NCBI GenBank assembly: GCA_964036195.1
Contig: OZ038453.1
Span: 3,921,469-3,985,468 of the forward strand
Direction of reading: 5' to 3'
Source: Sphaerolaimus hirsutus
Taxonomy: Eukaryota > Nematoda > Chromadorea > Monhysterida > Sphaerolaimidae
DNA: 64,000 bases
The notes below the pieces were generated by a model, which saw only the letters and a program-made list of their open reading frames with translations, had not been told where the DNA came from and searched no databases. Positions within the stretch are counted from its first letter, which is position 1; each line of letters opens with the position of its first letter. Of this stretch, positions 1 through 25,582 are shown piece after piece. The translations under genes were made by a program, and so were the position numbers.

Positions 1-3000
1 AATATTCTTCATTAGGGCGGTAAACTGGCTCAACAACGGGCACTACTTCCTCCACCACCGGCACAACTTCCTCCCGCGCGTCCGCGGAGGAGTCAGAGCC
101 CGAGGAGGCGGTTTCAATATCGGATAAAACTTCCGCCTGCAGTTCTTCTTCAAGGGCCGGGTATCTATCCAGTCCGACTAGTTCTTTCAAGTCAGCCCGC
201 GGGCGCCATTCCGGTGGCCAAAATCCCAGCACGTTTCCCCAGATTTGGCCCGATTCGTAAGAGTAAATTCGGTCGGCCTTGTGCTCGACCGTCAGAAACC
301 GGTGGAAAAAAGTTGACCACAACATGGTCTCGGCATTGGCCACCACGATGTGCACGCATTTGGCGCTGGAGGTGGCTACGTTTCCCCGGGGCAACTCTGC
401 TACAAATCCAACTCTACCGTACGCCTTCTTGGGATCGGCATCCAGCTGGGCGGAGTCGGTTGGCGGGCTGCCGCGCACACAGGAAATGATGACCACTTCC
501 GCTTCGCGGGCCTGTGCTTTGTCGGCGGTAATTACGCGGGTGGCCCAGTAGGCCGCGTCGTGTTCTGTATGGGCTACTAGTCGACTGATTAGGGCGCGCG
601 CCTGCGCCGCATAAAAGCACACAATTAGCAAACTAGCGGGATCTGTGAGATCTGCCCAGGGTAGGGTGGGATCTTCTTTCACCGTGGCCACGAGGTAGTC
701 GTACAGGTGCAGGATGATGCGTAGTTCCTTTTTGTTGATAATGGACATGCCTTCTTTCGATTCGCAGCCCTGGTGCACCAATGTCGATGACAGCATGACG
801 CCGTCCTCGAAGTCGCCAGGCAAGGGCAACATGGTGGCGCCGTGCACTGCTGTGTCGTTGTAGGCGCGTAGCAGTCCATTGTACGCCGCCACAGAGTTAG
901 CCTGAATGAGCTGGCGATGCCCGCGGAACACTGTTTCCAAGTGAACCACGGGACATAGTTGATATTGTGTTAGCCTATCAATGAGGGTGGGGTCGGGTTT
1001 CAGGACGGGCTCCACCCAGTCTTGCACGCGAATCATACGCGTCAATTGTTTACTGTCTCCAAATAGAAGTAGCATGCCGTTCACTGGGAGCTGAGCCGCC
1101 TGAACCACGCTAATTACTGCAGCGTCAGATGCCAAAGACGCTTCGTCAACAATTACCGCACACGCCGTCACACTTTTTATACGGGCGTCATGGGCGGAGT
1201 CTAAAGTGACATGGATTTGACCGGGCTGCACCACCTCCAAGAACACCTGGTGCAGCCTGACCGTAGCCCTGACATATTTAGACAGCGCCCTACGCAGCAC
1301 CTTACCCCAAAATCCCTGGTCAGCTAAACTAGCCTCTCCAGCCCGGGCGCCCGCCACGCCTGCCTCGAAGTCATCGAATGTCTGTTCGTCTCCATCTTCG
1401 GCAGTGAGAAATGGCACCTGTTCGGTCAGCTGCGCGCGTATAACGGCGTCGTCCGTGCAGTTGTTAATAATCTCGTCTACCAGCTCGTAGTCCTTCTTGG
1501 TGCCGTCGTACTTTTCCAGCGCTGCCGTCCATTCGGGGCTGAGGCGGACAATGTTGTGGCCGGTTCGCTGTGCTAGGGTGTGCAGGGTTGGTAATTGGGT
1601 CACAGGGGTGGTGCTATAAGAGGGATCACTTTCCCACATGGGGCTCAAAACACGCACCGGAAATGCCTCTCTTAATTTCAAAAATTCTTCGAAACCCTCC
1701 AGTTTTTTCATTTCAGAAAATGGCGTATCAGCCATATCGGTCCATTTCGCGCGTTCCTGCAACAAAACTTCCAAAGCCCCAAAAATATCCCGTTGCCCTA
1801 ATTTATTCAGGTTGGTAAGGGCCCTGCGCGCTCCTTCGTCGGCTGCCGAGTTGAGCGTGCACGTGATGAGCGTCGAATGGTATTTGGCGTTCGGCTGCTT
1901 GTCCGATGGCAAGTCGGAGCCCGCGCGCACCCTGGGTCTTGAGTTATAGTAATTATAGCCGCGTGAACACACATACGCCAGTTGATTTTGTGTGGTCGTC
2001 TTCCCGGACCCGAAAGGCGAGTCACACATGATCAAAAGGGGTTTGCGCATTCGCACGGCTGTGATCACAGCTTCTAGAACTTCTACCTGTCCTTGTTGCA
2101 GCAGAAACTCACCTAATTTGGCCTGAATCATTTGTTCATTTTTTCCCCTGAACAATGATTCGTACAGCTCATTAGCCTCGCGGCTAATTAGCGCCCAGTC
2201 AGTTTCATCATCCAGCAGACGCAAATTCAATATCACCGCTAATTGGATTTGCGCCTCCAGGGTGAGTACTTTTGACCCCTGAACCACTTTTGGCACCCAG
2301 CCAGCCGGCGCTTTGTTCAGGGCGGCCTGCAGTGACCGCATGGTTCGGTCATAATTGGGTGAGTCGTTTGAGCCGCGCACCATGTACCTTCCACTCTCCA
2401 AGGTACGGGGCAGTGCTGATTGCGACGCCGCCATGTCCAATTTTGCACGCAACATTGTAGTGGTTGGCTCTGATTCCACACTGGTAATTCTCACTGATAA
2501 GTTGGGGCTGCCCGCCGCTGGTTTGTCTTCGTCTTGTCGGGCCTGCACCAAACTCAACACTGACATGGGCGTCGCTTGGTTCAGCAGCTGTGTCTGCGTA
2601 TTAACCTGCTCCAGCAAACGAACGCGCTGCTCTTCTGGTCCCTCAAAAGTGTCAGCTTGTAATTCTTCTGGGTCCGGGCGGCGCACCATAATGTTGCATG
2701 CAGTGCCCTGCGGCGTGTGCTCCCAGAACACATGTGCGCACACATCCGTTGCGCGTTTCGCCCGAAACCGCAAAAATGACTCGTTGTAGCAGTGGGCCGC
2801 TGCTAAAATACTCAATTTGTACCTGAGAAATACGTCCATACTGTCTCGGTTCTCTGTGTCCGGCTGGACGCCCGTTGTGCTGATGTCCTCGGCCGTGGCG
2901 ACCTGCAACCTGTACGCATGGCCATAAAATTTGTCGCCAAACACGTCCAAATCGTTCAGATCGTGATATTCGACATGGGCCAGTCCCAACTGTCCAGCAC

Positions 3001-3794
3001 TCAAATTTTCCACTCTGCTGTCACTCACATACTCTCTGTGCAAAATGACCAACTTTTCCGGCCCGGCATCGCCCCGCTCCGCCGCGCCCAGCGGTTCCAA
3101 ATTCTTGTAATTTGACGGCGTGAAGGCCGCTCGCAGCCGCGCCGTTTTCCAGTCGCTCGTATAGGGCTGGTAGCCGGAAGTGTCGCCGCGCGTCAATGTA
3201 CGTGCCGCTTGAGTGACGCACCGCGTGCCCTGCATACTCACTACCACTGGGGCGGCAACATTTAAGGGGCATTTTGTCTGATTACCCCATATCGCGACGC
3301 CGGTGAACTCCCAGTACCTCGGGTTTTCTATTTTTTGTGCGATCGCGGTCGCCGAAAAACGCATTCCGTGGCGCACCAGGGGCAGAAACATCGAGGGGTG
3401 CTGTTTCTGAATTCTCGCGCACAAATCCACCAGCTGGGTGGTCCGTTTGTCTCTAGCCGCCTTGGCCCTCTTATTCGAGTAGTAAAAATACGGATACGCC
3501 TCATCCGCATTCACCCACTGCTCGTTTTCGCTGAGTATCGCCATCGTTTGCTCAGAAATTCTCACATGGCACTGATACTCAACATGCCCGTCGGCGCCCG
3601 TGTCAATATACACTCAATCTACCCAACCTTCAAATTTCCCTCTGCTGGGGTAGATTTCCGGTCCATTTTGCATCTGCTGCGCGCGGTAAAGTTGTCGCGG
3701 GGGAATGGTTCCACCGCCGCAGGCACCGTGTGTATTTGTCTCCTTGGATTTGATGGGCACCTTCAAATGGGCGTTTGCGAGAGGCCGAAGCCAT
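1..3794 (-). CDS. Second frame: unknown N-terminal region fused to UPF1-like SF1 helicase (partial)
   Basis: The minus-strand frame homologous to the three copy 2 frames below (21613-25582) shows no stop from about 3750 to base 1, over 1,200 codons, with the end outside the window. It differs from copy 2 in three telling ways. The codon just before the helicase ATG is CGA (2051-2053) where copy 2 has TGA. A two-base deletion seen in copy 2 is absent. The Walker A reads GSGKT (around 1995-2012) where copy 2 reads GSGKM. An 11-base deletion relative to copy 2 near 3757 throws the first ~12 codons out of frame, so translation from the ATG at 3794 would fail; an in-frame internal ATG lies near 3676. 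The helicase makes up roughly bases 1-2050. The N-terminal ~580 residues match no family I know. Confidence 0.8.
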
Positions 3795-4022
3795 TATAAA
3801 TGTGACAAAGTGATAAAATAATTAATTGCGAAGTTTTTTAATGAACGGGGAAAGTAATAAAGACTCGTGCGGTCCAGTTGCCCGTGGGCAAAAGGGGTGC
3901 ACGAGCTTCCTACGCACACACACACACTTTTACACACACATCACGCTTTTTCTACCTTGGGCTGGGTGATGTGGCGTGACGGCTGCTATTGTAACGGCTA
4001 ATTAGCACACAATTAATTAATT
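3795..4022 (-). other. Spacer between integrase and helicase frames, copy 1
   Basis: About 228 bases between the integrase stop and the ATG of the second frame, holding a short CA/TG microsatellite (about 3917-3945) and AT-rich sequence. The same spacer is at 21385-21612 in copy 2. No promoter could be assigned with confidence. A TATTTATA lies immediately before the second-frame ATG, too close to act as a TATA box for it. Confidence 0.7.
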
Positions 4023-6782
4023 CTAGTCGTCGCCGTATAATTCACTGTAAGAAGGGGGAATTAAATATTCACTGGTTGCTTTGCAACGATCTGCATGAAC
4101 TACATATATTTTCTTATTAATATTGTTGAACAAAGTCACTAATGGGTGGGCATAATCAATGCACTCATACGGACCGATAAAGCGAGGCGCAAATTTCTTA
4201 CTAGGGCCCGTCAACTGAGTAATGCGCGGCATGTACACGCGTACCGCTTGCCCGCGTTGCACATTCAATCGACGCGCATGGCGATTGGCGTAAAATTGTT
4301 CCTTTTGCTGCGCCTTTGCTAAAGCGGTGTGCGCCGCTTCGCGTGCTGTGGTCAGACGCGCGCCTAATTCATTTATAAGAGTGCGCTTATGCGGCAATGA
4401 GGGCAATGCCTCAGTGTCAGGGGGAGGCTCGATCATACGCTCCCACATGGACGCAGCAGGCTTGCCAAATAGCAACGCATAGGGGGTGGTTTGCAAAGAA
4501 GGGTGTTTTGATGTATTGTACGCATGTACAGCGGCGCCTAAATGTATGTCCCAATCGTCATGTGTACGATTTACGTAGTGGGAAACCTTTTCCATCAGAA
4601 CACCATTCCTACGTTCCACCATTCCATTACTCTTGGGGGTGTATGCAAAAGACGTGTGTTGGGTCGCGTTCAAATATTGTAAAAGCTTGGCAAACGTGCC
4701 CTCAGTAAAGCTAGGGGCGTTATCACTGAGTATAATGGCCGGCACACTAAATATAGGCAAAATGTGCAACAAAAATGCAAATGATACTGTGTCTTGTTTT
4801 ATGTCGGGAACGGGCACAGCAATTCCAAAACGTGTGCACTGATCAACAAATACTAACACATGTCGGTTTCTGCGTTTCGTGGTTAGTAAAGGTCCTATTG
4901 CGTCTACTGCTATCACATCACCTGGCCTTTTGGCTACCTGGCGGCACACCATTTGAGTTCGCACTGCCGCTCTGAGACCTTTCTTGGCGTTGCACGAAGG
5001 GCAAGTAGCAACCCAGCGCGCACTTTCTGGCCGCATTCCTGGAAACCACGCGAACTCTTGTAACCTTTCGAATGTTTTTATTATTCCTAAGTGGCCCGCC
5101 GTGGGGTGATTGTGAGCTAATTCTAACACGAATGGAACTAATTCCGACGGGATACACACTGGGTCGTATAACTGTATACCTAGTATCTGGGACGTTCCCG
5201 CTTGGCGACGTAATAAACCGTATTGATCAATAAAATACGGCGCGGCACTGTAAAAAGTATCTGCGCGGCACACTTCTATAGTTGTGGCTATGTACGGTTC
5301 TTCTGCTTGTAGTCGCTTCAACTTATCAACCAAAGTCATGGGAGGTAGCGCCATGATTGTACTGCGCTTGGTTACACTCGTTAAACCCGGAGCAACTTCT
5401 TTTCCGGCTCCTGAACCACCAGCCATTGTTCCAGTTCCAGGCGCTTCCGCATTCCGCTGCCGCTCTCGCAGCCCGGGTGACTCCGCCTCTTTTCGCCCCC
5501 GCGTCCGGTCGCTGATTGGTCGCAGTAACTCCGCCTCCTCGTTTACGCCGCTTCGTTCGCTGATTGGCTGGTACGCTGCCCTGCTCGCCGCAGCTACCGT
5601 AACCTGCTTGTCGTGCGGGATAGCGATTTCACGGCACGTAACTTGTGCGAACTGCTCAAAAGCCTCATCCAGGTCCTTTTTCTCGTCGAATACCACTGGC
5701 GCATCTTGTCTTCTAGATAATGCATCTGCTAATTCATTGCTTTTTCCCCTCAAATGCTTGAACGTGATTTGATATGGCGTAATTGTTAAAGCAAATTTGT
5801 GTAGCATGGCGTGCGGCGTAGTCTCTAAATTAGGGTTCTTTACCCACGAAATGCTCTTGGCGTCAGTCCAGACTTCAAAGGGCCGTCCTGCCAGATAACA
5901 GTGCCAATTACGTATACTTTCGTAAATTGCACATGCTTCCAGTGAAATTGCTGGCCATTTGCTTTGGGTTGCACCTAACTTCCGGCTGTAAAAGGCACAT
6001 GCATGTAATATTTTTTCATCCTCTGCTCGTTGTGCTAGCACTCCTGCAACGGCGATTTTAGAGGCGTCCGTGATAATTATAAACATACGTTTGGGATCAG
6101 GAAATTGCAAACATGGGCTTCCTAACAATGCTTCCTTGAGCTTATGAAAAGCTTCCAGTGCCTTGGGTTTCGCTGTCAGATCCACTGGGGTATCGCTGTT
6201 GTAATTTTCCCTCGGTCCCGTACGCGTGAGATTTGACAAAGGTACGGCTAATTCTGCGCATCTGTGAATCATGTGTCTGAAAAAACCTATAGCTCCTAGA
6301 AAACCCTTAACCTCTTTTACGGTAGTGTGTACCGGCCAGTCCTGAATTATGTGCCGTTTATCATCCGGTACGCACACGCCGTCACGGCCAATCATAAATC
6401 CCAGAAAACGTACAGCTGTGACGCGTGCGAAAAAACACTTTTTCGGACTAATTTTGAAATTATTTCTAATTAATCTTTCCAACACCTGCCCTATGTCGTA
6501 TAAATGTGTTTCCCAGGTTGCACTATAAATCAGTAAATTGTCGATGTATAATAGCACATTTCGATGTATTAAGCCGGCCATAGCTAATTCAAAACAGCGC
6601 TGCGCTAAACTAGGTGAGCATTTTAATCCCATTGGTAAACGTTTCAGTTGAAATTGTCCAAAAACATTTCTAAATGACGTAATGTGTCGATCATCTGGAT
6701 GCAAAGCAATGTTATAGAAAGCTTGATTTATGTCGGCACTGCTAAAAATACTTGCAGCTGCATAAAGATTCGACTGTTTCAT
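4023..6782 (-). CDS. Reverse transcriptase (C-terminal part), RNase H and integrase
   Basis: 919 codons. The first 41 nt overlap the upstream frame and the ATG is internal to RT. RT motif A is SSADINQAF with Asp17. The active site reads YIDN at 79-82 where YxDD is expected, so the second catalytic Asp is Asn. RNase H spans about 237-358 with Asp239 (TDAS), Glu282, Asp307 (WTDAK) and Asp353 (ELADALSRR). A linker (about 360-500) contains two 16-residue repeats. Integrase has His559/His564 with Cys594/Cys597 (HHCC zinc-binding type), a DD35E triad Asp627, Asp687, Glu723 with exactly 35 residues between the last two, and a GPY/F-like segment (APRFIGPYECI) near the C-terminus. The product would reverse-transcribe and integrate the element, but YIDN should abolish polymerisation. 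Confidence 0.93.
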   Translation of the reverse strand: MKQSNLYAAASIFSSADINQAFYNIALHPDDRHITSFRNVFGQFQLKRLPMGLKCSPSLAQRCFELAMAGLIHRNVLLYIDNLLIYSATWETHLYDIGQVLERLIRNNFKISPKKCFFARVTAVRFLGFMIGRDGVCVPDDKRHIIQDWPVHTTVKEVKGFLGAIGFFRHMIHRCAELAVPLSNLTRTGPRENYNSDTPVDLTAKPKALEAFHKLKEALLGSPCLQFPDPKRMFIIITDASKIAVAGVLAQRAEDEKILHACAFYSRKLGATQSKWPAISLEACAIYESIRNWHCYLAGRPFEVWTDAKSISWVKNPNLETTPHAMLHKFALTITPYQITFKHLRGKSNELADALSRRQDAPVVFDEKKDLDEAFEQFAQVTCREIAIPHDKQVTVAAASRAAYQPISERSGVNEEAELLRPISDRTRGRKEAESPGLRERQRNAEAPGTGTMAGGSGAGKEVAPGLTSVTKRSTIMALPPMTLVDKLKRLQAEEPYIATTIEVCRADTFYSAAPYFIDQYGLLRRQAGTSQILGIQLYDPVCIPSELVPFVLELAHNHPTAGHLGIIKTFERLQEFAWFPGMRPESARWVATCPSCNAKKGLRAAVRTQMVCRQVAKRPGDVIAVDAIGPLLTTKRRNRHVLVFVDQCTRFGIAVPVPDIKQDTVSFAFLLHILPIFSVPAIILSDNAPSFTEGTFAKLLQYLNATQHTSFAYTPKSNGMVERRNGVLMEKVSHYVNRTHDDWDIHLGAAVHAYNTSKHPSLQTTPYALLFGKPAASMWERMIEPPPDTEALPSLPHKRTLINELGARLTTAREAAHTALAKAQQKEQFYANRHARRLNVQRGQAVRVYMPRITQLTGPSKKFAPRFIGPYECIDYAHPLVTLFNNINKKIYVVHADRCKATSEYLIPPSYSELYGDD

Positions 6783-9021
6783 CTAAGCGGGGTAATGGGA
6801 ATTGGGGAGCGTGCAAAACAGCGTTCAGGCGTCTGTAATCAATTACCATCCGCTTTGATCCATCCGGTTTGGATACCACCAGCGTGGGGGCACAATACGG
6901 GCTCGTACTGGGTTCCACGATGTCGTGCTCAATGAGGCATCTCAAATGATTTTCTAAGTATTGCTGATCATCCAGGCTCAATCGGTACATTCTGCAGGCA
7001 ATTGGTTTTTTGTCCACTAATTGTAACCGGTAGTCCACTAATTCGCTGTAGCCAATGTCATACTTGTGTCGAGCAAAAGCTTCTTTATACTGCAAAATCA
7101 CCTTTTTCAGTTCCTCTCTGCGCTCGTCCGTTAAAGTTTCTGGCACTGTAAATTCCATGACGTGTCCGTCTGGGCATGCAACTTGCAGTGGGGGTCCTAA
7201 TTTGTCTTTGGCAACTTTGGGGGGAGGTTCAGTCGCTTGAACTTGCCGACACACATCTCTGTCATAACACTGCTTCACCCATTCAGCGGGGGGATCTCCA
7301 GGTTTCACCTTCAGCACGCAGTCCACTGGCTCGACCACTGCAATGTGCTGTCCTACCTGTAGCACTACTGGCTGATTTTGTACATTTGCACATCTCACCT
7401 GAAACACAGGGGCACTGGTTTCATAGGCCGCTGAAGCAGCCATAACTCCACAGTGTTCGCCTACCGTATCCAATCCCATGACCGTAAATAACTTTTCATC
7501 CATGGGGGCAGATAATTTCGCCGTCACTAGCGCTTCATGTCTAGCCAGAATTTCTATTTTTTCATTCACAATAGTGTAAATTCTGCGCTGCTGCACTTCT
7601 GGGTCTGGGCTATCGAATGGAATTATCGCGTTAGCCGTAGGGATCCGTAGTTCCCTTGCAGGTAGATCTACTACCATGTGCCGCAAGACATCTGCGCCAA
7701 TTAGAATTTCACCAGCTAATCCGTTCACCGCCTGAAACACAATCCTGAAAGTGTTGTTTCCCATCGTTACCGGTACTTCCATCTGTCCCAATACCAAAAG
7801 TTTCGAGTCCGCTGCACACCTGAGGGCTCCAATAGGCGAAACTTCATCATGCTTAGTAGCCTTTTCCTTGTGTCGCATCAGCACGTCTCTATTGCATAAT
7901 GAACGCATGGCGCCTGTGTCCAGTAGACATCTCCGATATTCTCTCCCATCGATGGTTATGGTAATGGACGGGCTGTAATACACATGCACAATTTCTTCAT
8001 GTCGATTGGCCACTTGATGTATGTTATCTCTTTCTTCCGTCGAAAAAGTGATCATGCATACCGATTCTTCTTCCAGGTCGCATTTTCTGTTGATACTGTA
8101 TTGTATAGCGGGAAAACGACGCGCGCCCGTGAGTGCGGGCATGCCACTTGGCATTCCCACGCACGGGTTAATTACCATTCTTACCTTTACCTGTTCGCTA
8201 GGGCGGTCCTCAGCCAGTTCGACGATGATATTGGACTTTTCTTCTGTCTTCGGTCGTTTTTTGATTTTTTCCTTTGCCCGGTTCACCAAAGTCACGGCCA
8301 TTTCCGGCGCTGCAGCCATGAGCGCGGCTAGTAAATATTGCATAGTGACTAGTGCACATATCAGGTAAATCCATATTTGTAGCCAGGTGCGCCAGGTGTC
8401 AAAATCCCACCATCCCAGCGCCAATACCGATTTTGCCAAGGTTCGATGTCTTTGCATGTGTGATTCCACCTTCAGCTCCGCCCCCTGCGTAATTTGCCGC
8501 ACAATTGAATATGCATGCCATACGTCATTTAGGGTGGTCGTCGGCAATAATTCTGACAAATTGTACATGGTCGTGGCGGCAAAAATCTGATGATGCACAT
8601 CCTTAACCTTTTCCTGTTGCCATTTCTGCGGGAAACTGTGTGTGTTATACATGGGTAAGTGTTCCAGGCCGCCTACCTCCGGCAGATATCTGTACCACTG
8701 TCCATTTAACATCACCACACAATTGTGCGCATTGGTGCATGTTCCCGGGATCGCTTGAAAGTGCAAAATGTTGGTTAACCTATTCATGTGTAGCGTCACA
8801 TTTTGCCCATGCACACTAACTAGCACAGGTACTGTTTCATAACACTCTGGAGACTTTTCCTCTTTCATTATCTCGTATGTTTTTACCGCGAAACATTTGT
8901 GAACCAAAAATCCGTCCGGAGCAGGTTTAGCAATTATTTCATTATCATTCATGTACCAGCGGGCTGTCGTAGTTGCGTGTTCACTCATAGCCAGGCGCAC
9001 AAATTCTTGGAAGTGTTGCAC
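6742..9021 (-). CDS. Glycoprotein C-terminal part with membrane anchor, aspartic protease and start of RT
   Basis: 759 codons with a GTG as first codon shown; this is a continuation of the previous frame, not a real start. Residues 1-210 look extracellular, with Cys43, 60, 95 and 101 and sequons NVT74 and NLS154. A hydrophobic anchor spans 213-238, followed by a Lys-rich cytoplasmic-like tail. A retropepsin follows: LLDTGAM with catalytic Asp368, and the second motif ILIGADVL near 439-446. The N-terminal RT follows (about 640-759), including KPDGSKRMVIDYRRLN and the FPLPRLDE segment typical of Ty3/gypsy fingers. The frame ends at a run of five T on the sense strand (plus 6744-6748), where RT continues in the next frame, consistent with a single-base length change. 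Confidence 0.8.
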   Translation of the reverse strand: MQHFQEFVRLAMSEHATTTARWYMNDNEIIAKPAPDGFLVHKCFAVKTYEIMKEEKSPECYETVPVLVSVHGQNVTLHMNRLTNILHFQAIPGTCTNAHNCVVMLNGQWYRYLPEVGGLEHLPMYNTHSFPQKWQQEKVKDVHHQIFAATTMYNLSELLPTTTLNDVWHAYSIVRQITQGAELKVESHMQRHRTLAKSVLALGWWDFDTWRTWLQIWIYLICALVTMQYLLAALMAAAPEMAVTLVNRAKEKIKKRPKTEEKSNIIVELAEDRPSEQVKVRMVINPCVGMPSGMPALTGARRFPAIQYSINRKCDLEEESVCMITFSTEERDNIHQVANRHEEIVHVYYSPSITITIDGREYRRCLLDTGAMRSLCNRDVLMRHKEKATKHDEVSPIGALRCAADSKLLVLGQMEVPVTMGNNTFRIVFQAVNGLAGEILIGADVLRHMVVDLPARELRIPTANAIIPFDSPDPEVQQRRIYTIVNEKIEILARHEALVTAKLSAPMDEKLFTVMGLDTVGEHCGVMAASAAYETSAPVFQVRCANVQNQPVVLQVGQHIAVVEPVDCVLKVKPGDPPAEWVKQCYDRDVCRQVQATEPPPKVAKDKLGPPLQVACPDGHVMEFTVPETLTDERREELKKVILQYKEAFARHKYDIGYSELVDYRLQLVDKKPIACRMYRLSLDDQQYLENHLRCLIEHDIVEPSTSPYCAPTLVVSKPDGSKRMVIDYRRLNAVLHAPQFPLPRLDETVESLCSCKYF

Positions 9022-9035: not shown

Positions 9036-9806
9036 CTACGGCTGTGCACGCATGGTTTGTTCTGCTGTTTCGTATACCGCCTGCATGCTGGCTGCTAATT
9101 GGCCTGCGCTCACTATCCCCAGCGTGGGTCGACCTTGCGCTCTTTTTTGTCTGACGCTTCGAATCACTGCCTTTTCAAATGGCGCCACTACGATATCCTG
9201 ATCTGATTTCCATAATTTGATGCCGCATGATTCAACCTCTTCATGTGCTCTGAAAGACAGTGATAGCGTATGATCATCGGCTAGCCAGATATCCTGTCTA
9301 ATGCGTCCATGCATTTCACGCCATTTTTCATATGGGCATTCTGCCTTCGGGTTCGGTTTCCATGTTAATTGGCTGCCATCTTCTAGCGTGCATGCACCCA
9401 TTTCATAATTGCACTTGCTGACCTCACCCAGCGTGCTTTGCATGGTGTTGGCTCCATATCTCATTCGTACTTCCCCGCGAAACAGACCACAGTGTGGCGT
9501 TGTTTCACTCACCCATTTGCAACAGTACAATCCATGTCCTGAGTAGCTAACATTGGTGGGATATTGAGTGTCCCATGCGTTGTCCAGATCACTCACAGGG
9601 GTCATGGGTCCATTATTGCATTTGTGATATTTAATCATGCCTTCGCACTCGGCGGCGCCCACAGATCGGGGGTTAGAATCAAACTTTTCCAGCGTGACGT
9701 CGCCCCAGAAGTTCTGATACGTCCTTGCCGTTCTGGTAGAGGCCACACACCTGTGCGCTGCCGCACGATATTCTACCATATTTCGCTTGTAGATTGTCAG
9801 TGTCAA
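9036..9806 (-). CDS. Glycoprotein-like (env-like) segment, N-terminal part, broken
   Basis: 256 codons, Cys-rich and with no pol motifs, placed between gag and protease. Visible features are many spaced cysteines, an NVS sequon, and near residues 219-222 a basic RQKR, furin-like, followed by a Gly/Ala-rich stretch that could be fusion-peptide-like. The open frame extends upstream of the first ATG to the C-run at about 9863-9872. It stops at 9036 and the reading continues in another frame at 9021 and below, so there is a one-base-class break between about 9036 and 9080. The signal-like segment at the end of gag and the membrane anchor in the next frame bracket this region as one ectodomain. 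An envelope-type role is inferred from architecture; I do not recognise the family. Confidence 0.6.
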   Translation of the reverse strand: MTLTIYKRNMVEYRAAAHRCVASTRTARTYQNFWGDVTLEKFDSNPRSVGAAECEGMIKYHKCNNGPMTPVSDLDNAWDTQYPTNVSYSGHGLYCCKWVSETTPHCGLFRGEVRMRYGANTMQSTLGEVSKCNYEMGACTLEDGSQLTWKPNPKAECPYEKWREMHGRIRQDIWLADDHTLSLSFRAHEEVESCGIKLWKSDQDIVVAPFEKAVIRSVRQKRAQGRPTLGIVSAGQLAASMQAVYETAEQTMRAQP

Positions 9807-9838
9807 TTTTTGTGGCCGTTCTAATGACGCCGTAGTGT

Positions 9839-13240: not shown

Positions 13241-13302
13241 TTCCCTTTGGGGTGATTCGTTATCCGTGAAGCCGTTTTTTGTAGAGGCGTTGATCAGATC
13301 GT

Positions 13303-13320
13303 TGACTCGCTACACATCCA
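13303..13320 (-). promoter_or_regulatory. Candidate primer binding site
   Basis: Two bases after the LTR end the sense strand reads TGGATGTGTAGCGAGTCA. The leading TGG fits pairing with a tRNA 3' CCA end. I could not match the rest to a specific tRNA from memory, so tRNA identity is open. Confidence 0.45.
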
Positions 13321-13710: not shown

Positions 13711-13716
13711 TTTATT
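13711..13716 (-). promoter_or_regulatory. LTR polyadenylation signal
   Basis: AATAAA on the sense strand about 440 bases after the TATA box, conserved in the copy 2 LTR at 27901-27906. The spacing would give a long R region. Confidence 0.6.
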
Positions 13717-14156: not shown

Positions 14157-14163
14157 TTTTATA
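14157..14163 (-). promoter_or_regulatory. TATA box in 5' LTR
   Basis: Sense-strand TATAAAA preceded by a GC-rich CGCGC stretch, conserved at the equivalent place in the other LTR (27456-27462). It is the likely core promoter for the genomic transcript; the start site itself is not determined. Confidence 0.65.
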
Positions 14164-14999
14164 GCGCGCCCGACCAAGGCCACAGAAAGAACGCTCAGTT
14201 GTGGGGGTTGTTCAAGGTTATTGCATTGCCGGGTAAGGTTTGGAACTTTGGGCCTGAACACACGCTGCAAAGACACTAGCACTTATGAGTTCACCAATCA
14301 CGCTGGGTGATGGGAATAATTAATTGGCACCGCTGTGCTCTTCACTGTAAACTGTGCTCTGCATGTGTCTTGCAGTCGCATGTCGACAATAATTGCCGTT
14401 TGCCACTTTTCCACCCATTACCTAGTCCTAAATAAAAATGCACTTGGTCGGGGAAATTTCTGAATGTTATCTATCGGGGTGTCTAGGCGTTTAACAGAGT
14501 CAACACCTTTTAGCTTAACAAGAAACTTTAAAGCTTTTCTAACCCATTCCCAGACACTGCACCCTTTTGACCAAATATGTAAACTTGATAAAAACCTAAA
14601 AATTATAGCATTCGAAAGTACATATCGGAAAATGCATTTTTTTAAAAACGAAAGTAATCATTTAATTAACTTAAAAATGCGGGTAACCTAATTAGCTTAA
14701 TTAATAAAACATGAAATGAAAAATTAACATCACACAAGAAATAATTACGTAATTAACGGAAAAGAAAAATATTTAATAAAATCATGGCCGCAGTAATGTC
14801 CATTCGGGCGTACCGTCCTGGGGCTGCGGCTTCGTTGGCGGATTTGCAGTGCACAGCGAACCGCACGTTCACTGTGACTTCCCTGTGCACCGCGGGCCGT
14901 CATTCGGTCACGCATGGTCGTCCTCGAGTTGTCGGAGTGTCTGCACAAAATTGTCGTTACGTTTGTACGCATGATTGGCTAGCCATATTTCCACCTACA

Positions 15000-15385
15000 A
15001 AAACACTTACTGTGTTACGTTAGAACATCGTTTATACCATCCACATCCATATATAAGGCTGTAAAAACTTATAAATGGTGGTTATTGTTGCATTTTTCAC
15101 GTTTTTCTATCAAAATTTTCACTCTGAAAAAAACCCGGGGGGTAATTCGAGGAAATACGGTAATTATTTTAGCATAGGCACTGCTTCGATGTGAGTTGCA
15201 TACTGTAGCTTCAACGTCAAAGTATTGTACATATCTGATTGGATAAAATGAATTTGAAATTCAAATTAAGACAACAACACCTAAAGTCAACTATTCATAT
15301 ATTTAAAACCATTAATTTAACCATTTAACCTATATATATATTTTAACCATTAATATATTTACCTAACTGTTAATATATTCAACTA
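15000..15385. other. AT-rich intergenic sequence with half of a TA-type MITE
   Basis: No gene. 15050-15171 ends in GAGGAAATACGG followed by TA, the right terminus of the TA-flanked MITE family; its left half is missing at the copy 1 LTR boundary. This suggests that copy 1 inserted into, or removed, part of such a MITE. Confidence 0.55.
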
Positions 15386-18564: not shown

Positions 18565-18926
18565 CATATGTATTCAAAGCATATTGTATCGTATCCAAGT
18601 CTAATGTTTTTGTATCCAATTCATATGTCCAAAACACTTGAATTTGAACATTTGAATACACATTAAACTTTTCAGGGCCTTATACACCATACAGGGTCTT
18701 TTACATGGTCTGGGAATGCCCCCATGTGTTAGACAATTATTGGTAAACATTTCACTCGTGGCAATCTTGGCCTCTGTTGCATGTGTAATCAAAGCTATGC
18801 TGGTTTTATTGCCAGCTCTGGGCATTTTGGATGGATGCCAAGTGACTGTTGGTTTGAAGTTCCAAGTTGAAACAAACAATTCCTCACAATAATTCCTCAC
18901 TGATGCCAATGAATATGTACTTTAGG
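18565..18926. other. Intergenic sequence with right arm of the split foldback element
   Basis: 18660-18720 carries the foldback right terminus (ACAGGGTCTTTTACATGGTC, then GGGAATGCCCCC). No gene is supported up to the abrupt start of retroelement copy 2. Confidence 0.5.
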
Positions 18927-19011
18927 GGAAAGATTAATTAGAAATAATTTCAAAATTAGTCCGAAAAAGTGTTTTTTCGCACGCGTCACAGCCGTACATT
19001 TTCTGGGATTT

Positions 19012-21384
19012 ATGATTGGCCGTGACGGCGTGTGCGTACCGGATGATAAACGGCACATAATTCAGGACTGGCCGGTACCCACTACCGTAAAAGAGGTTAA
19101 GGGTTTTCTAGGAGCTATAGGTTTTTTTAGACGCATGATTCACAGATGCGCAGAGTTAGCCGTACCTTTGTCAAATCTCACGCGTACGGGACCAAGAGAA
19201 AATTACAATAGCGACACCCCAGTGGATTTGACAGCGAAACCCAAGGCACTGGAAGCTTTTCATAAGCTCAAGGAAGCATTGTTAGGAAGCCCATGTTTGC
19301 AATTTCCCGATCCTAAACGTATGTTTATAATTATCACGGACGCCTCTAAAATCGCTGTTGCAGGCGTGCTAGCACAACGAGCAGAGGACGAAAAAATACT
19401 ACATGCATGTGCCTTTTACAGCCGGAAGTTAGGTGCAACCCAAAGCAAATGGCCAGCAATTTCACTGGAAGCATGTGCAATCTACGAAAGTATACGTAAT
19501 TGGCATTGTTATCTGGCGGGACGGCCCTTTGAAGTCTGGACTGACGCCAAGAGTATTTCGTGGGTAAAGAATCCTAATTTAGAGACTACCCCGCACGCCA
19601 TGCTACACAAGTTCGCTTTAGCAATTACGCCGTATCAAATCACGTTCAAGCATTTGAGGGGAAAAAGCAATGAATTAGCAGATGCATTATCTAGAAGACA
19701 AGACGCGCCAGTGGTATTCGGCGAGAAAAAGGACCTGGATGAGGCTTTTGAGCAGTTTGCACAAGTTACGTGCCGTGAAATCGCTATCCCGCACGATAAG
19801 CAGGTTACGGTAGCTGCGGCGAGCAGGGCAGCGTACCAGCCAATCAGCGAACGAAGCGGCGTAAACGAGGAGGCGGAGTTACTGCGACCAATCAGCGACC
19901 GGACGCGCGGGCGAAAAGAGGCGGAGTCACCCGGGCTGCGAGAGCGACAGCGGAATGCGGAGGCGCCTGGAACTGGAACAATGGCTGGTGGTTCAGGAGC
20001 CGGAAATGAAGTTGTTCTGGGTTTAACGAGTGTAACCAAGCGCAGTACAATCATGGCGCTACCTCCCATGACTTCGGTTGATAAGTTGAAGCAACTACAA
20101 GCAGAAGAACCGTACATAGCCACAACTATAGAAGTGTGTCGCGCAGATAATTTTTACAGTGCCGCGCCGTATTTTATTGATCAATACGGTCTATTACGTC
20201 GCCAAGCGGGAACGTCCCAGATACCAGGTATACAGTTATACGACCCAGTGTGTATCCCGTCGGAATTAGTTCCATTCGTGTTAGAATTAGCTCACAATCA
20301 CCCCACGGCGAGCCATTTAGGAATAATAAAAACATTTGAAAGGTTACAGGAGTTCGCGTGGTTTCCAGGAATGCGGCCAGAAAGTGCGCGCTGGGTTGCT
20401 ACTTGCCCTTCGTGCAACGCCAAGAAAGGTCTCAGAGCGGCAATGCGAACTCAAATGGTGTGCCACCAGGTAGCCAAAAGGCCAGGTGATGTGATAGCAG
20501 TAGACGCAATAGGACCTTTACTAACCACGAAACGCAGAAACCAACATGTGTTAGTATTTGTTGATCAGTGCACACGTTTTGGAATTGCTGTGCCCGTTCC
20601 CGACATAAAACAAGACACAGTATCATTTGCATTTTTGTTGCACATTTTGCCTATATTTAGTGTGCCGGCTATTATACTCAGTGATAACGCCCCTAGCTTT
20701 ACTGAGGGCACTTTTGCCAAGCTTTTACAATATTTGAATGCGACCCAACACACGTCTTTTGCGTACACCCCCAAGAGTAATGGAATGGTGGAACGTAGGA
20801 ATGGTGTTCTGATGGAAATAGTATCCCACTACGTAAATCGTACACATGACGATTGGGACATACATTTAGGCACCGCTGTACATGCGTACAATACATCGAA
20901 ACACCCTTCTTTGCAAACCACCCCCTATGCGTTGCTATTTGGCAAGCCTGCTGCGTCCATGTGGGAGCATATGATCGAGCCTCCCCCTGACAGTGAGGCA
21001 TTGCCCTCATTGCCGCATAAGCGCACTCTTATAAATGAATTAGGCGCGCGTCTGACCACAGCACGCGAAGCGGCGCACACCGCTTTAGCAAAGGCGCAGC
21101 AAAAGGAACAATTTTACGCCAATCGCCGTGCGCGTCGATTGAATGTGCAACGCGGGCAAGCGGTACGCGTGTACACGCCGCGTATTACTCAGTTGACGGG
21201 CCCTAGTAAGAAATTTGCGCCTCGCTTTATCGGTCCGTATGAGTGCATTGACTATGCCCACCCATTAGTGACCTTGTTCAACAATATTAATAAGAAAATA
21301 TATGTAGTTCATGCAGATCGTTGCAAAGCAACCAGTGAATATTTAATTCCCCCTTCTTACAATGAATTATACGGCGACGACTAG
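19012..21384 (+). CDS. RT C-terminus, RNase H and integrase, 5'-truncated
   Basis: 790 codons equivalent to residues 130-919 of the copy 1 frame; the ATG used is an internal Met and homology reaches back to 18927. RNase H catalytic residues are all present (Asp110, Glu153, Asp178, Asp224 in this numbering), as is the DD35E integrase triad. One change lies next to the integrase zinc-binding His: HPTAG in copy 1 reads HPTAS here. The RNase H-integrase linker again has the two 16-residue repeats. With no RT palm, gag or start region this is a dead remnant, though its frame is uninterrupted. Confidence 0.92.
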   Translation: MIGRDGVCVPDDKRHIIQDWPVPTTVKEVKGFLGAIGFFRRMIHRCAELAVPLSNLTRTGPRENYNSDTPVDLTAKPKALEAFHKLKEALLGSPCLQFPDPKRMFIIITDASKIAVAGVLAQRAEDEKILHACAFYSRKLGATQSKWPAISLEACAIYESIRNWHCYLAGRPFEVWTDAKSISWVKNPNLETTPHAMLHKFALAITPYQITFKHLRGKSNELADALSRRQDAPVVFGEKKDLDEAFEQFAQVTCREIAIPHDKQVTVAAASRAAYQPISERSGVNEEAELLRPISDRTRGRKEAESPGLRERQRNAEAPGTGTMAGGSGAGNEVVLGLTSVTKRSTIMALPPMTSVDKLKQLQAEEPYIATTIEVCRADNFYSAAPYFIDQYGLLRRQAGTSQIPGIQLYDPVCIPSELVPFVLELAHNHPTASHLGIIKTFERLQEFAWFPGMRPESARWVATCPSCNAKKGLRAAMRTQMVCHQVAKRPGDVIAVDAIGPLLTTKRRNQHVLVFVDQCTRFGIAVPVPDIKQDTVSFAFLLHILPIFSVPAIILSDNAPSFTEGTFAKLLQYLNATQHTSFAYTPKSNGMVERRNGVLMEIVSHYVNRTHDDWDIHLGTAVHAYNTSKHPSLQTTPYALLFGKPAASMWEHMIEPPPDSEALPSLPHKRTLINELGARLTTAREAAHTALAKAQQKEQFYANRRARRLNVQRGQAVRVYTPRITQLTGPSKKFAPRFIGPYECIDYAHPLVTLFNNINKKIYVVHADRCKATSEYLIPPSYNELYGDD
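19840..19932 (+). repeat. Two 48-bp in-frame repeats with CCAAT and GC-box motifs
   Basis: Each unit starts CCAATCAGCG (19840 and 19888) and contains AGGCGGAG (19871 and 19919). They encode PISERSGVNEEAELLR and the related PISDRTRGRKEAESPG. The repeat is conserved in copy 1 (about 5475-5567, opposite strand). The bases match NF-Y- and Sp1-like promoter motifs but could equally reflect coding repeats. Confidence 0.7.
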
Positions 21385-21612
21385 AATAAATTAATTGTGC
21401 GTTAATTAGCCGTTACGATAGCAGCCGTCACGCCACATCACCCAGACCAAGGTAGAAAAAGCGTGATGTGTGTGTAAAAGTGTGTGTGTGTGCGTAGGAA
21501 GCTCGTGCACCCCTTTTGCCCATGGGCAACTGGACCGCACGAGTCTTTATTACTTTCCCCGTTCATTAAAAAACTTCGCAATTAATTATTTTATCACATT
21601 GTTATATTTATA

Positions 21613-22764
21613 ATGGCTTCGGCCTCTTGCAAACGCCCATTTGAAGGTGCAGACGCCCCGCCCATCAAATCCAAGGAGACAAATACACATGGTGCCTGCG
21701 GCGGTGGAACCATTCCCCCGCGACAACTTTACCGCGCGCAGCAGATGCAAAATGGACTGGAAATCTACCCCAGCAGAGGGAATTTTGAAGGTTGGGTAGA
21801 TCAAGTGTATATTGACACGGGCGCCGACGGGCATGTTGAGTATCAGTGCCATGTGAGAATTTCTGAGCAAACGATGGTGATACTCAGTGAAAATGAGCAG
21901 TGGGTGAATGCGGATGAGGCATATCCGTATTTTTACTACTCAAATAAGCGGGCCAAGGCGGCTAGAGACAAACGGACCACCCAGCTGGTGGATCTGTGCG
22001 CAAGAATTCAGAAACAACACCCCTCGATGTTTTTGCCCCTGGTGCGCCACGGAATGCGTTTTTTGGCGACCGCGATCGCACAGAAAATAGAAAACCCAAG
22101 ATACTGGGAGTTTACTGGCGTCGCGATATGGAGTAATCAGACAAAATGCCCCTTAAATGTTGCCGCCCCAGTGGTAGTGAGTACGCAGGGCACACGGCGC
22201 GTCACTCAAGCGGCACGTACATTGACGCGCGGCGACACTTCCGGCTACCAGCCCTATACGAGCGACTGGAAAACAGCGCGGCTGCGGGCGGCCTTCACGC
22301 CGTCGAATTACAAGAATCTGGAACCACTGGGCGCGGCGGAGCGGGGCGATGCCGGGCCGGAAAAGTTGGTCATTTTGCACCGTGAATATGTAAGTGACAG
22401 CAGAGTGGAAAATTTGAGTGCTGGACAGTTGGGGCTGGCCCACGTCGAATATCACGACCTGAACGATTTGGACGTGTTTGGCGACAAATTTTACGGCCAT
22501 GCGTACGGGCTGCAGGTCGCCACAGCCGAGGACATCAGCACAACGGGCGTCCAGCCGGACACAGAACCGAGACAGCATGGACGTATTTCTCAGGTACAAA
22601 TTGAGTATTTTAGCAGCAGCCCACTGCTACAACGAGTCATTTCTGCGGTTTCGGGTGAAACGCGCAACAGATGTGTGTGCGCATGTGTTCTGGGAGCACA
22701 CGCCGCAGGGCACCGCATGCGACATTATGGTGTGCCGCCCGGACCCCGAGGAATTACAAGCTGA
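21613..22764 (+). CDS. Second frame, N-terminal portion (unknown function), truncated by frameshift
   Basis: 383 codons from an ATG preceded by TATTTATA. About 320 residues are homologous to copy 1; the remainder is out-of-frame read-through after a two-base deletion relative to copy 1 at about 22563-22567. No signal peptide, membrane segment or recognised motif is visible. The composition is soluble and mixed, with several Trp/Tyr-rich stretches and no coiled coil. It lies directly upstream of the helicase and is continuous with it in copy 1, so it is best seen as an N-terminal domain of the helicase protein. Confidence 0.75.
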   Translation: MASASCKRPFEGADAPPIKSKETNTHGACGGGTIPPRQLYRAQQMQNGLEIYPSRGNFEGWVDQVYIDTGADGHVEYQCHVRISEQTMVILSENEQWVNADEAYPYFYYSNKRAKAARDKRTTQLVDLCARIQKQHPSMFLPLVRHGMRFLATAIAQKIENPRYWEFTGVAIWSNQTKCPLNVAAPVVVSTQGTRRVTQAARTLTRGDTSGYQPYTSDWKTARLRAAFTPSNYKNLEPLGAAERGDAGPEKLVILHREYVSDSRVENLSAGQLGLAHVEYHDLNDLDVFGDKFYGHAYGLQVATAEDISTTGVQPDTEPRQHGRISQVQIEYFSSSPLLQRVISAVSGETRNRCVCACVLGAHAAGHRMRHYGVPPGPRGITS

Positions 22765-23365
22765 CACTTTTGAGGGACCAGAAGAGCAGCGCGTTCGTTT
22801 ACTGGAGCAGGTGAATACGCAGACACAGCTGCTGAACCAGGCGACGCCCATGTCAGTGTTGAGTTTGGTGCAGGCCCGACAAGACGAAGACAAACCAGCG
22901 GCGGGCAGCCCCAACTTATCAGTGAGAATTACCAGTGTGGAATCAGAGCCAACCACTACAATGCTGCGTGCAAAATTGGACATGGCGGCGTCGCAATCAG
23001 CACTGCCCCGTACCTTGGAGAGTGGAAGGTACATGGTGCGCGGCTCAAACAACTCGCCCAATTATGACCGAACCATGCGGTCACTGCAGGCCGCCCTGAA
23101 CAAAGCGCCGGTCGGCTGGGTGCCAAAAGTGGTTCAGGGGTCAAAAGTACTCACCCTGGAGGCGCAAATCCAATTAGCGGTGATATTGAATTTGCGTCTG
23201 CTGGATGACGAAACTGACTGGGCGCTAATTAGCCGCAAGGCTAATGAGCTGTACGAATCATTGTTCAGGGGAAAAAATGAACAAATGATTCAGGCCAAAT
23301 TAGGTGAGTTTCTGCCGCAACAAGGACAGGTAGAAGTTTTAGGAGCTGTGATCACAGCCGTGTGA
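22478..23365 (+). CDS. Second frame, middle portion (unknown function), ends at nonsense codon
   Basis: 295-codon open stretch; the true continuation of the upstream frame begins around 22568. A helical segment with heptad-like leucines (EEQRVRLLEQVNTQTQLL) may form a short coiled coil. It ends in TGA at 23363-23365, immediately followed by the helicase ATG. Copy 1 has CGA at this position (2051-2053), so the stop is a C-to-T change at a CpG and the two parts were once one protein. Confidence 0.75.
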   Translation: MATNFTAMRTGCRSPQPRTSAQRASSRTQNRDSMDVFLRYKLSILAAAHCYNESFLRFRVKRATDVCAHVFWEHTPQGTACDIMVCRPDPEELQADTFEGPEEQRVRLLEQVNTQTQLLNQATPMSVLSLVQARQDEDKPAAGSPNLSVRITSVESEPTTTMLRAKLDMAASQSALPRTLESGRYMVRGSNNSPNYDRTMRSLQAALNKAPVGWVPKVVQGSKVLTLEAQIQLAVILNLRLLDDETDWALISRKANELYESLFRGKNEQMIQAKLGEFLPQQGQVEVLGAVITAV

Positions 23366-25582
23366 ATGCGCAAACCCCTTTTGATTATGTGTGACTCGCC
23401 TTTCGGGTCCGGGAAGATGACCACACAAAATCAACTGGCGTATGTGTGTTCACGCGGCTATAATTACTACAACGCGAGACCCAGGGTGCGCGCGGGCTCC
23501 GACTTGCCATCGGACAAGCAGCCGAACGCCAAATACCATTCGACGCTCATCACGTGCACGGTCAACTCGGCGGCCGACGAAGGAGCGCGCAGGGCCCTGA
23601 CCAACCTGAATAAATTAGGGCAGCGGGATATTTTTGGGGCTTTGGAAGTTTTGTTGCGGGAACGCGCGAAATGGACCGCTATGGCTGATACGCCATTTTC
23701 TGAAATGAAAAAACTGGAGGGTTTCGAAGAATTTTTGAAATTAAGAGCGGCATTTCCGGTGCGTGTTTTGAGCCCCATGTGGGAAAGTGATCCCTCTTAT
23801 AGCACCACCCCTGCGACCCAATTACCAACCCTGCACACCCTAGCACAGCGAACCGGCCACAACATTGTCCGCCTCAGCCCTGAATGGACGACAGCGCTGG
23901 AAAAGTACGACGGCGCCAAGAAGGACTACGAGCTGGTAGACGAGATTATTAACAACTGCACGGACGACGCCGTTATACGCGCGCAGCTGACCGAACAGGT
24001 GCCATTTCTCACTGCCGAAGATGGAGACGAACAGCCATTCGATGACTTCGAGGCAGGTGTGGCGGGCGCCCGGGCTGGAGAGGCTAGTTTAGCTGACCAG
24101 GGATTTTGGGGTAAGGTGCTGCGTAGGGCGCTGTCTAAATATGTCAGGGCTACGGTCAGGCTGCACTGGGTGTTCTTGGAAGTGGTGCAGCCCGGTCAAA
24201 TCCATGTCACTTTAGACTCCGCCCACGACGCCCGTATAAAAAGTGTGACGGCGTGTGCGGTAATTGTTGACGAAGCGTCTTTGGCATCTGACGCTGCCGT
24301 AATTAGTGTGGTTCAGGCGGCTCAGCTCCCAGTGAACGGCATGCTACTTCTATTTGGAGACAGTAAACAACTGACGCATATGATTCGCGTGCAAGACTGG
24401 GTGGAGCCTGTCCTGAAACCCGACCCCACCCTCATTGATAGGCTCACACAATATCAACTATGTCCCGTGGTTCACTTGGAAACAGTGTTCCGCGGGCATC
24501 GCCAGCTCATTCAGGCTAACTCTGTGGCGGCGTACAATGGACTGCTACGCGCCTACAACGACACAGCAGTGCACGGCGCCACCATGTTGCCCTCGCCTGG
24601 CGACTTCGAGGACGGCGTCATGCTGTCATCGACATTGGTGCACCAGGGCTGCGAATCGAAAGAAGGCATGTCCATTATCAACAAGAAGGAACTGCGCATC
24701 ATCCTGCATCTGTACGATTACCTCGTGGCCACGGTGAAAGAAGATCCCACCCTACCCTGGGCAGATCTCACAGATCCCGCTAGTTTGCTAATTGTGTGCT
24801 TTTATGCGGCGCAGGCGCGCGCCCTAATCAGTCAACTAGTAGCCCATACAGAACACGACGCGGCCTACTGGGCCACCCGCGTAATTACCGCCGACAAAGC
24901 ACAGGCCCGTGAAGCGGAAGTGGTCATCATTTCCTGCGTGCGCGGCAGCCCGCCAACCGACTCCGCCCAGCTGGATGCCGATCCCAAGAAGGCGTACGGT
25001 AGAGTTGGATTTGTAGCAGAGTTGCCCCGGGGAAACGTAGCCACCTCCCGCGCCAAATGTGTACGCATCGTGGTGGCCAATGCCGAGACCATGTTGTGGT
25101 CAACTTTTTTCCACCGGTTTCTGACGGTCGAGCACAGGGCCGACCGACATTATTCTTATGAATCGGGCCAAATCTGGGGAAACGTGCTGGGATTCTGGCC
25201 ACCGGAATGGCGCCCGCGGGCCGACTTGAAAGAACTAGTCGGACCGGATAGATACCCGGCCCTTGAAGAAGAACTGCAGGCGGAAGTTTTATCCGATATT
25301 GAAACCGCCTCCTCGGGCTCTGACTCCTCCGCGGACGCGCGGGAGGAAGTTGTGCCGGTGGTGGAGGAAGTAGTGCCTGTTGTTGAGCCAGTTTACCGCC
25401 CTAATGAAGAATATTCCTCCATTAGCAACGACATGGCGGCCATGGCACTGCAGAACGTAGCCGAGCCCCCCTCGCCGCCGCCCGAGCACCACGACGCGGT
25501 CGAGGCCATCCCACTGCCACCGGAGGATGCTCCAGCGCAACAGGTAGAACACCACATGGAAAATGGTAATTGTGAAAATTGA
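23366..25582 (+). CDS. UPF1-like superfamily 1 helicase
   Basis: 738 codons. Motif I is DSPFGSGKM at residues 10-18; copy 1 has the canonical Thr after Lys, so Met18 (ATG from ACG) should impair ATP/Mg binding. Motif II is VIVDEAS (about 300-306), motif III LLLFGDSKQL (about 328-337), motif IV-like ETVFRGHRQL, motif V ITADKAQAREAEVVIIS (about 508-524) and motif VI NVATSRAK (about 557-564). The V and VI pattern fits the AAA_11/AAA_12 UPF1-like group of SF1B rather than Pif1 or UvrD. The C-terminal ~110 residues are acidic, Pro/Val-rich and disordered. In an LTR element it could unwind RNA or RNA-DNA hybrids during reverse transcription or protect the transcript from decay; both are inferences. 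Confidence 0.85.
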   Translation: MRKPLLIMCDSPFGSGKMTTQNQLAYVCSRGYNYYNARPRVRAGSDLPSDKQPNAKYHSTLITCTVNSAADEGARRALTNLNKLGQRDIFGALEVLLRERAKWTAMADTPFSEMKKLEGFEEFLKLRAAFPVRVLSPMWESDPSYSTTPATQLPTLHTLAQRTGHNIVRLSPEWTTALEKYDGAKKDYELVDEIINNCTDDAVIRAQLTEQVPFLTAEDGDEQPFDDFEAGVAGARAGEASLADQGFWGKVLRRALSKYVRATVRLHWVFLEVVQPGQIHVTLDSAHDARIKSVTACAVIVDEASLASDAAVISVVQAAQLPVNGMLLLFGDSKQLTHMIRVQDWVEPVLKPDPTLIDRLTQYQLCPVVHLETVFRGHRQLIQANSVAAYNGLLRAYNDTAVHGATMLPSPGDFEDGVMLSSTLVHQGCESKEGMSIINKKELRIILHLYDYLVATVKEDPTLPWADLTDPASLLIVCFYAAQARALISQLVAHTEHDAAYWATRVITADKAQAREAEVVIISCVRGSPPTDSAQLDADPKKAYGRVGFVAELPRGNVATSRAKCVRIVVANAETMLWSTFFHRFLTVEHRADRHYSYESGQIWGNVLGFWPPEWRPRADLKELVGPDRYPALEEELQAEVLSDIETASSGSDSSADAREEVVPVVEEVVPVVEPVYRPNEEYSSISNDMAAMALQNVAEPPSPPPEHHDAVEAIPLPPEDAPAQQVEHHMENGNCEN

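Follow-up and report, generated by a model that had tools for sequence, protein, structure and literature searches.

A Ty3/Gypsy-type retroelement of the nematode Sphaerolaimus hirsutus with a putative UPF1-type helicase gene downstream of integrase and a glycoprotein region inside Gag-Pol

The DNA considered here, a window of 64,000 nucleotides from the nematode Sphaerolaimus hirsutus (C4:3921469-3985468, C4 being contig OZ038453.1), contains in its left 28 kb two inverted copies of one long terminal repeat (LTR) retroelement, which are 95-97% identical over the parts they share (Table 1). Copy 1 lies on the minus strand and runs from window position 15000 to C4:3919047, left of the window, for a total of 17.4 kb; its LTRs have TG..CA ends and are flanked on both sides by TTTT. 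Copy 2, on the plus strand, is 5'-truncated and begins inside the reverse transcriptase (RT), and its 3' untranslated region (UTR) and 3' LTR (25583-28295) extend past position 25582, where the initial annotation of this DNA had placed the end. The piece immediately left of the window contains part of another copy, with an LTR 92-93% like those of copies 1 and 2. The pol order is protease, RT, RNase H and integrase, the protease match being weak (E 0.009, below cut-off), and close to the C-terminal end of integrase stands RFIGPY, which we take to be the GPY/F motif of Ty3/Gypsy integrases. Among 7,998 scored candidates, a protein search with the RT-integrase region returned 22 matches with Gypsy-type Pfam domains, at 22-30% identity. 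By its LTRs, target duplications, domain order and sequence similarity, the element is assigned to the Ty3/Gypsy (Metaviridae) type. Identity with Troyka was rejected, the LTRs having TG..CA ends with 4-5 bp duplications versus CG..CG ends with 3-bp duplications in Troyka, as described in passages of PMC12440569.

Between integrase and the 3' LTR lies a separate third gene, open reading frame 3 (ORF3), which has about 1,332 codons in many copies; in copies 1 and 2 alike, a spacer of 228 bases separates it from the end of integrase. A superfamily 1 (SF1) helicase of the UPF1/SEN1/IGHMBP2 type makes up the last ~720 residues of ORF3. The Pfam model AAA_12 scores 81.5 bits in copy 1 and 89.4 bits in copy 2 (cut-off 27), and both the spacer and these scores bear out the initial annotation, in which a helicase frame after integrase in the two copies was taken as part of an LTR mobile unit. 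TIGR00376 (IGHMBP2 family, NCBIfam) gives E 3e-13 in copy 1 and 1e-13 in copy 2, with 49.0 and 50.5 bits versus a cut-off of 348.9. Regarding structures, the closest PDB chain is 8ftm ('5'-3' RNA helicase-like protein'; E 4.4e-6), which we take to be SEN1, with UPF1 next (E 0.06); copy 1 as query gives 1.1e-5 and 0.03, respectively. In the intact copy L040, all of the motifs named in the initial annotation are found, namely I (GSGKT) at residue 608, II at 893, III at 924, V at 1106 and VI at 1151, with a gap of 285 residues from I to II. The single long frame that had been described for each window copy holds for the helicase parts, which are open, but neither ORF3 is intact, a state that the annotation overlooked together with the glycoprotein in gag-pol, the frameshift in RT and the LTR ends. 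In copy 1, a frame break and a stop occur near the start, Ser replaces the motif VI Arg and the gene leaves the window at base 1, while in copy 2 the N-terminal part is interrupted by a frame break and a stop, and the Walker A Thr is replaced by Met.

The same gene recurs throughout the genome, of which 348.5 Mb in 762 contigs were scanned. The mitochondrial COX1 of this genome reads well by eye with TGA as Trp and AGA as Ser, as fits an invertebrate. With AAA_12, 150 of 454 candidates were scored, so that the counts are lower bounds; by match coordinates, 148 of them belong to the ORF3 family, and the remaining pair are exons of the host's UPF1 type. Helicase matches occur on 31 contigs. Of the 148 family matches, 91 lie in frames of 1,327 codons or longer, and 57 in shorter ones. 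When integrase is taken as the starting point (92 scored of 1,863 candidates), AAA_12 is found downstream on the same strand within 12 kb in 85 cases, at a distance of 2,984-3,058 bases in 82 and of 4,111-7,696 bases in three; the seven unlinked integrase matches include copy 1, whose helicase fell outside the scored set. The possibility, raised in the initial annotation, that the frame would prove unlinked to pol in other copies has thereby fallen away. The integrase end was also seen directly upstream in 16 of 18 ORF3 loci. LTR pairs were sought for ten copies elsewhere, eight of which were fully usable (runs of N left one unusable and one partial). In these eight, the pairs are 99.76-100% identical, three of them without any difference, and target duplications of 4-5 bp flank seven; copy 1 is also flanked by a duplication. 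Since LTRs and target duplications enclose ORF3 and the LTR pairs are nearly identical, ORF3 is to be counted as part of the mobile unit, whose movement is recent. At one locus, L056 (C271:30000-37000), a 1,400-codon ORF3 frame has no integrase directly upstream, an integrase match lying 7.1 kb off; something may have been inserted between the two.

The ratio of nonsynonymous to synonymous differences per site (pN/pS) of ORF3 is 0.059 at a pS of 0.068 in 15 open copies, and 0.061, 0.052 and 0.113 for the N-terminal part, the core and the tail, respectively. Of the 18 ORF3 loci, this set excludes L039 (cut short), L055 (interrupted) and L056 (no integrase in the stretch). Values for other parts of the element are 0.055 over the last 180 codons of integrase (16 copies) and 0.044 over 600 codons of the glycoprotein region (seven copies). 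As a component of an element that moved recently, ORF3 is strongly constrained by purifying selection.

Upstream of pol, the element appears from profile matches to encode a Monjiviricetes-type fusion glycoprotein between gag and protease, in one open frame in many copies (window 8674-9902; L013-L018 and L037). A genome scan with the glycoprotein piece (135 scored of 1,148 candidates) gave frames of 2,216-2,233 codons in 64 matches. In the pieces read from such frames, the order is gag tail, hydrophobic segment, PF24664 (Monjiviricetes_fusion), second hydrophobic segment, weak protease and, by eye, the start of RT, both flanking hydrophobic segments being seen in L013. PF24664 scores 29.8-30.2 bits (cut-off 27) in all three intact frames, the match covering only profile positions 188-448 of 653. 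Frames of 1,048-1,054 codons account for ten of the 135 matches, and some of the closest matches of copy 1 are of this kind; in the two inspected, L017 and L018, the gag tail and the glycoprotein-protease part are in different overlapping frames, and this subfamily perhaps has a second frameshift. A further scan with PF24664 itself, in which 68 of the 1,557 candidates were scored and frame lengths ran from 481 to 6,806 codons, was followed by inspection of pieces of three other families. Two are giant single-frame families, one with 6,806 and 6,725 codons (C1:17083501 and C1:28191791) and one with 5,824-5,844 codons (C9:26956070, C13:4036642 and C1:20665178), and in both the piece that follows the glycoprotein contains an aspartic protease scoring above cut-off. 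The larger shows RT after protease (by eye, and by a BLAST match of E 4e-5), no gag model being matched in its upstream pieces (L082, L087), and the smaller has gag with a zinc knuckle upstream of the glycoprotein in an open frame (L088). No frame of 120 codons on the element strand, and hence no ORF3 helicase, was found 7.5-11.5 kb downstream in the one copy of each giant family that was searched (L078, L079). The third, a 2,900-codon family with PF24664, is BEL/Pao with the glycoprotein after pol. The order gag-env-pro-pol, for which one family gives a detailed view and two distant families give supporting pieces, differs from the common plan of gag-pol-env.

The frame that carries the glycoprotein stops at the UAG of UUU UAG C, and RT resumes in the +1 frame, reading K-Y-F / S-S-A-D, a junction that falls just before the Asp of RT motif A. 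The site is the same in each of 19 other copies that cover it; 20 regions were taken, L038 missing the site, and the 19 had been chosen for upstream frames of 2,217-2,228 codons ending there. Over the 95 codons that precede the site, pN/pS is 0.030 (19 copies); over the 170 codons that follow, it is 0.0053 (17 copies, two having been dropped for want of an open frame of 150 codons from the site). The longest frames are of 919 codons among the 92 scored integrase matches, 75 of which have 914-919, and of 2,233 codons among the 135 scored glycoprotein matches, so no scored copy reads through the site in one frame. With a conserved slippery codon before the stop and selection on both frames, UUU UAG C has the marks of a programmed +1 frameshift site. 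In passages of PMC5009743, UUU is the shift site of a fungal antizyme and gag-pol frameshifts are reported in many animal LTR elements; a limited literature search returned no paper titled for a frameshift inside RT. Such a shift within the RT domain would be an unusual means of adjusting how much structural protein is made relative to enzyme.

The spacer between integrase and ORF3 contains a 45-base hairpin in which two of 45 columns are variable, versus 66 of 189 outside it (18 copies; Fisher p 1.4e-5); an Rfam search gave no match. In 16 of the 18 copies, the two window copies not among them, a T-rich stretch ending in TAG and resembling a 3' splice site precedes the hairpin. Splicing ahead of the hairpin probably yields the ORF3 mRNA.

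With regards to function, retroviruses both exploit and counteract host RNA helicases, UPF1 among them. An even chance may be given to the reading that ORF3 is an element-encoded SF1 RNA helicase of the UPF1/SEN1 type that acts on the element's own RNA and is needed for its spread. Lying between the LTRs and target duplications that delimit the mobile unit, with dozens of open copies and strong purifying selection acting on it, ORF3 has the standing of a selected element gene. As to its exact role, it can be tentatively hypothesized, as the best fit, that a self-encoded UPF1-type helicase binds the long-tailed element RNA against UPF1-dependent decay. ORF3 would be made from its own, probably spliced, mRNA with the conserved hairpin in the leader; the protein would bind the element's long RNA and displace or block host UPF1 there, and would thereby protect from decay an mRNA whose main stop, the UAG in RT, is followed by ~7-9 kb of RNA. 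The same activity could unwind element RNA for export or reverse transcription. A tail of that length after the main stop would be a trigger of UPF1-dependent decay, as in Rous sarcoma virus, the RNA of which has a 7-kb 3' UTR and a stability element (passages of PMC5580461 and PMC2925335). Retroviral inhibition as well as recruitment of UPF1 has been reported, and links between UPF1 and retroviruses include that with Tax of human T-cell leukaemia virus type 1 (in part of PMC5789848) and the recruitment of UPF1, with exclusion of UPF2, by human immunodeficiency virus type 1 for RNA export (in part of PMC4693258).

Several observations weigh against a helicase acting on element RNA. AAA_11, which the initial annotation had proposed as a profile check of both frames along with AAA_12, stays below its cut-off of 27 (19.3 and 15.4 bits), although motifs I, Ia and II are visible by eye. 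Motif I has Ser where, as we understand the consensus, Walker A usually begins with Gly or Ala, and motif IV has Val instead of Gln; these departures make helicase activity uncertain. As had been noted from the sequence alone, the N-terminal region, here ~600 residues, matches no Pfam family, and two AlphaFold predictions gave low confidence only (predicted local distance difference test, pLDDT, 28.5 and 30.6). The pN/pS of integrase over its last 400 codons (0.029, four copies) is below that of ORF3, and the picking of open frames lowers pN/pS; we judge that this bias cannot account for values so low. Protein and IMG/VR searches, of limited reach, gave no convincing ORF3 relative in other species.

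Other roles can be envisaged for ORF3. It might counter small-RNA silencing, as a decoy or an unwinder of double-stranded element RNA; MOV10 and Armitage are UPF1-like helicases too, and the strong selection on ORF3 is compatible with many roles. Suppression has been proposed for SF1 helicases encoded by long interspersed nuclear elements (LINEs), in passages of PMC5563155, but these are virus-type and ORF3 is not. No MOV10 chain is among the PDB matches listed (12, or 26 with copy 1), and relaxed or positive selection, which might be expected for a defence-facing protein, is not seen over the whole gene, so that this role seems improbable while still deserving some weight. Packaging of ORF3 in the particle, where it would unwind the 17-kb RNA during reverse transcription or assembly, would suit the long genome and a selection as strong as that on integrase; a separate gene outside Gag-Pol does not favour packaging, and other long LTR elements, to our knowledge, manage without a helicase, which leaves the particle, too, an unlikely site of action.

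That ORF3 is a functionless passenger, a captured gene copied along with the element, could be suggested by the broken state of both window copies and by the 57 family matches with shorter frames, but with so low a pN/pS at appreciable pS and 91 frames near full length, the idea is very hard to sustain. The idea that rearrangement or misassembly fused a host gene to pieces of retroelements deserves almost no credence, nothing in its favour having been found, given the near-constant distance of 82 of the 85 linked pairs, the spread over contigs, and the LTRs and target duplications around the whole unit. Taken with the other parts of the element, the preferred reading of ORF3 as a helicase for the element's own RNA can be set in a wider and speculative picture, that of a virus-like gag-env-pro-pol lineage with the glycoprotein as a membrane-spanning insert between capsid and protease, in which one Gypsy-type family would have RT split by a +1 frameshift and its own UPF1-type helicase replacing or disarming host UPF1 on element RNA.

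Regarding origin, the initial annotation had offered capture from a host UPF1-like gene or from an RNA virus. The viral source is not supported, Viral_helicase1 scoring 13.1 and 18.0 bits (cut-off 21) versus the far higher scores of AAA_12. Recent capture of host UPF1 was rejected, since over 95 residues a host UPF1 exon and ORF3 are 24% identical. The likeliest origin, in our view, is that a cellular gene of the UPF1/SEN1 type was captured long ago. Two near-identical pieces of the host UPF1 gene were met on contigs C65 (L001) and C14 (L002), and are possibly haplotypes or a duplicate. ORF3 has the same helicase core and motif order as the cellular UPF1, SEN1 and IGHMBP2 helicases, but is 24-30% identical to the relatives compared and differs from them by the 285 residues between motifs I and II, by the N-terminal part without family and by the lack of a recognised CH (Cys-His) zinc region: the copy 1 frame has 7 Cys among its first 520 residues, and the CH domain of UPF1 orthologues was not recognised there, with no Pfam match. 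Among 5.8 billion proteins, no relative was found at E 0.001, which is weak evidence as only ~8,000 exact-word candidates were scored; with residues 500-1140 and E up to 10, the best matches are two weak ones to trypanosome UPF1-like proteins (E 0.099 and 0.29). That the RT-integrase search gave only 22 proteins indicates the limited reach of such searches. IMG/VR scans with the helicase, RT-integrase and glycoprotein gave no match, and a PHROGs search one weak match, to a function-unknown family.

No LTR element with a UPF1-type helicase in a gene of its own was found described in the open-licence literature. The third ORFs of bdelloid rotifer LTR elements are reportedly of env, GDSL esterase and DEDDy exonuclease kinds. 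Those elements likewise have a captured enzyme as ORF3, and in the passages of PMC5408684 'helicase' occurs only once, in the reference list. Retroelements with an SF1 helicase are also found in insects, namely LINEs (TRAS ORF2, Jockey ORF1) and SF1H-Copia fusions in Aedes and Leptopilina, the helicase being fused to RNase H or integrase of Copia elements in two cases (passages of PMC5563155). According to the same passages, the insect helicases are virus-type, mostly in non-LTR elements and not a separate ORF downstream of integrase, whereas the present helicase is of the UPF1 type, matches AAA_12 and belongs to a Gypsy-type element with many copies. As for the glycoprotein, that of the Pao element Anakin is from a chuvirus, of the same broad virus group, but Anakin has a BEL/Pao pol and, in the passages of PMC7642597, no helicase, while here pol is Gypsy-type and the glycoprotein stands ahead of protease; in Roo, Tas and Cer-7, env is downstream of the polyprotein (same passages). 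An LTR element with its own selected UPF1-type helicase in many young copies would allow testing of what such elements need from the UPF1 pathway, and suggests that mobile elements can carry their own RNA-handling machinery.

Table 1. Features of the two element copies, in window positions.
Feature	Position	Strand	Evidence or remark
Copy 1 5' LTR (TGTAGG...CTGACA)	13323..15000	-	1,678 bp; pair 99.05% identical, each of this length; partner 3' LTR at C4:3919047-3920724
Copy 1 gag frame, hydrophobic segment at its end	9839..13309	-	PF03732 passes its cut-off (E 1.6e-5); CCHC knuckle does not reach its own
Copy 1 envelope-like glycoprotein, first part	9036..9902	-	in other copies, shares a single open frame with the gag tail and the protease region
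Copy 1 envelope-like glycoprotein, second part	8674..9006	-	PF24664 E 9.8e-5, 20.9 bits, below cut-off (27) in the broken copy 1
Copy 1 aspartic protease region	7678..7965	-	PF13975 weak, E 0.009, below cut-off
Copy 1 putative +1 frameshift site UUU UAG C in RT, before motif A	6741..6747	-	identical in 19/19 other copies covering the site
Copy 1 RT (from motif A)-RNase H-integrase frame, 919 aa	4023..6782	-	RVT_1, RT_RNaseH, Integrase_H2C2 and rve above cut-off
Copy 1 conserved spacer hairpin (integrase-ORF3)	3863..3907	-	two of 45 columns variable in 18 copies
Copy 1 ORF3 (N-terminal domain and UPF1-type helicase), broken near start, leaves window	1..3794	-	open part 2-3613
Copy 1 AAA_12 helicase domain	332..988	-	E 7.8e-23
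Copy 2 RT (part)-RNase H-integrase	18913..21384	+	5' side truncated here
Copy 2 spacer hairpin	21500..21544	+	-24.5 kcal/mol for 21497-21552, z -4.36
Copy 2 ORF3, N-terminal part broken (frame break and stop)	21613..25582	+	helicase part open at 23366-25582
Copy 2 AAA_12 helicase domain	24428..25084	+	E 3e-25; C4:3945896-3946552
Copy 2 3' LTR	26157..28295	+	extra stretch 26733-27191; 95.7-96.2% identity to copy 1 LTR

Adjoining the truncated start of copy 2, two direct repeats of ~430 bp (window 16540-16967 and 18130-18559) are 96% identical and 1.59 kb apart, and are accompanied by 44-bp tandem units at 17053-17323; the repeat pair looks like a small non-autonomous LTR element.

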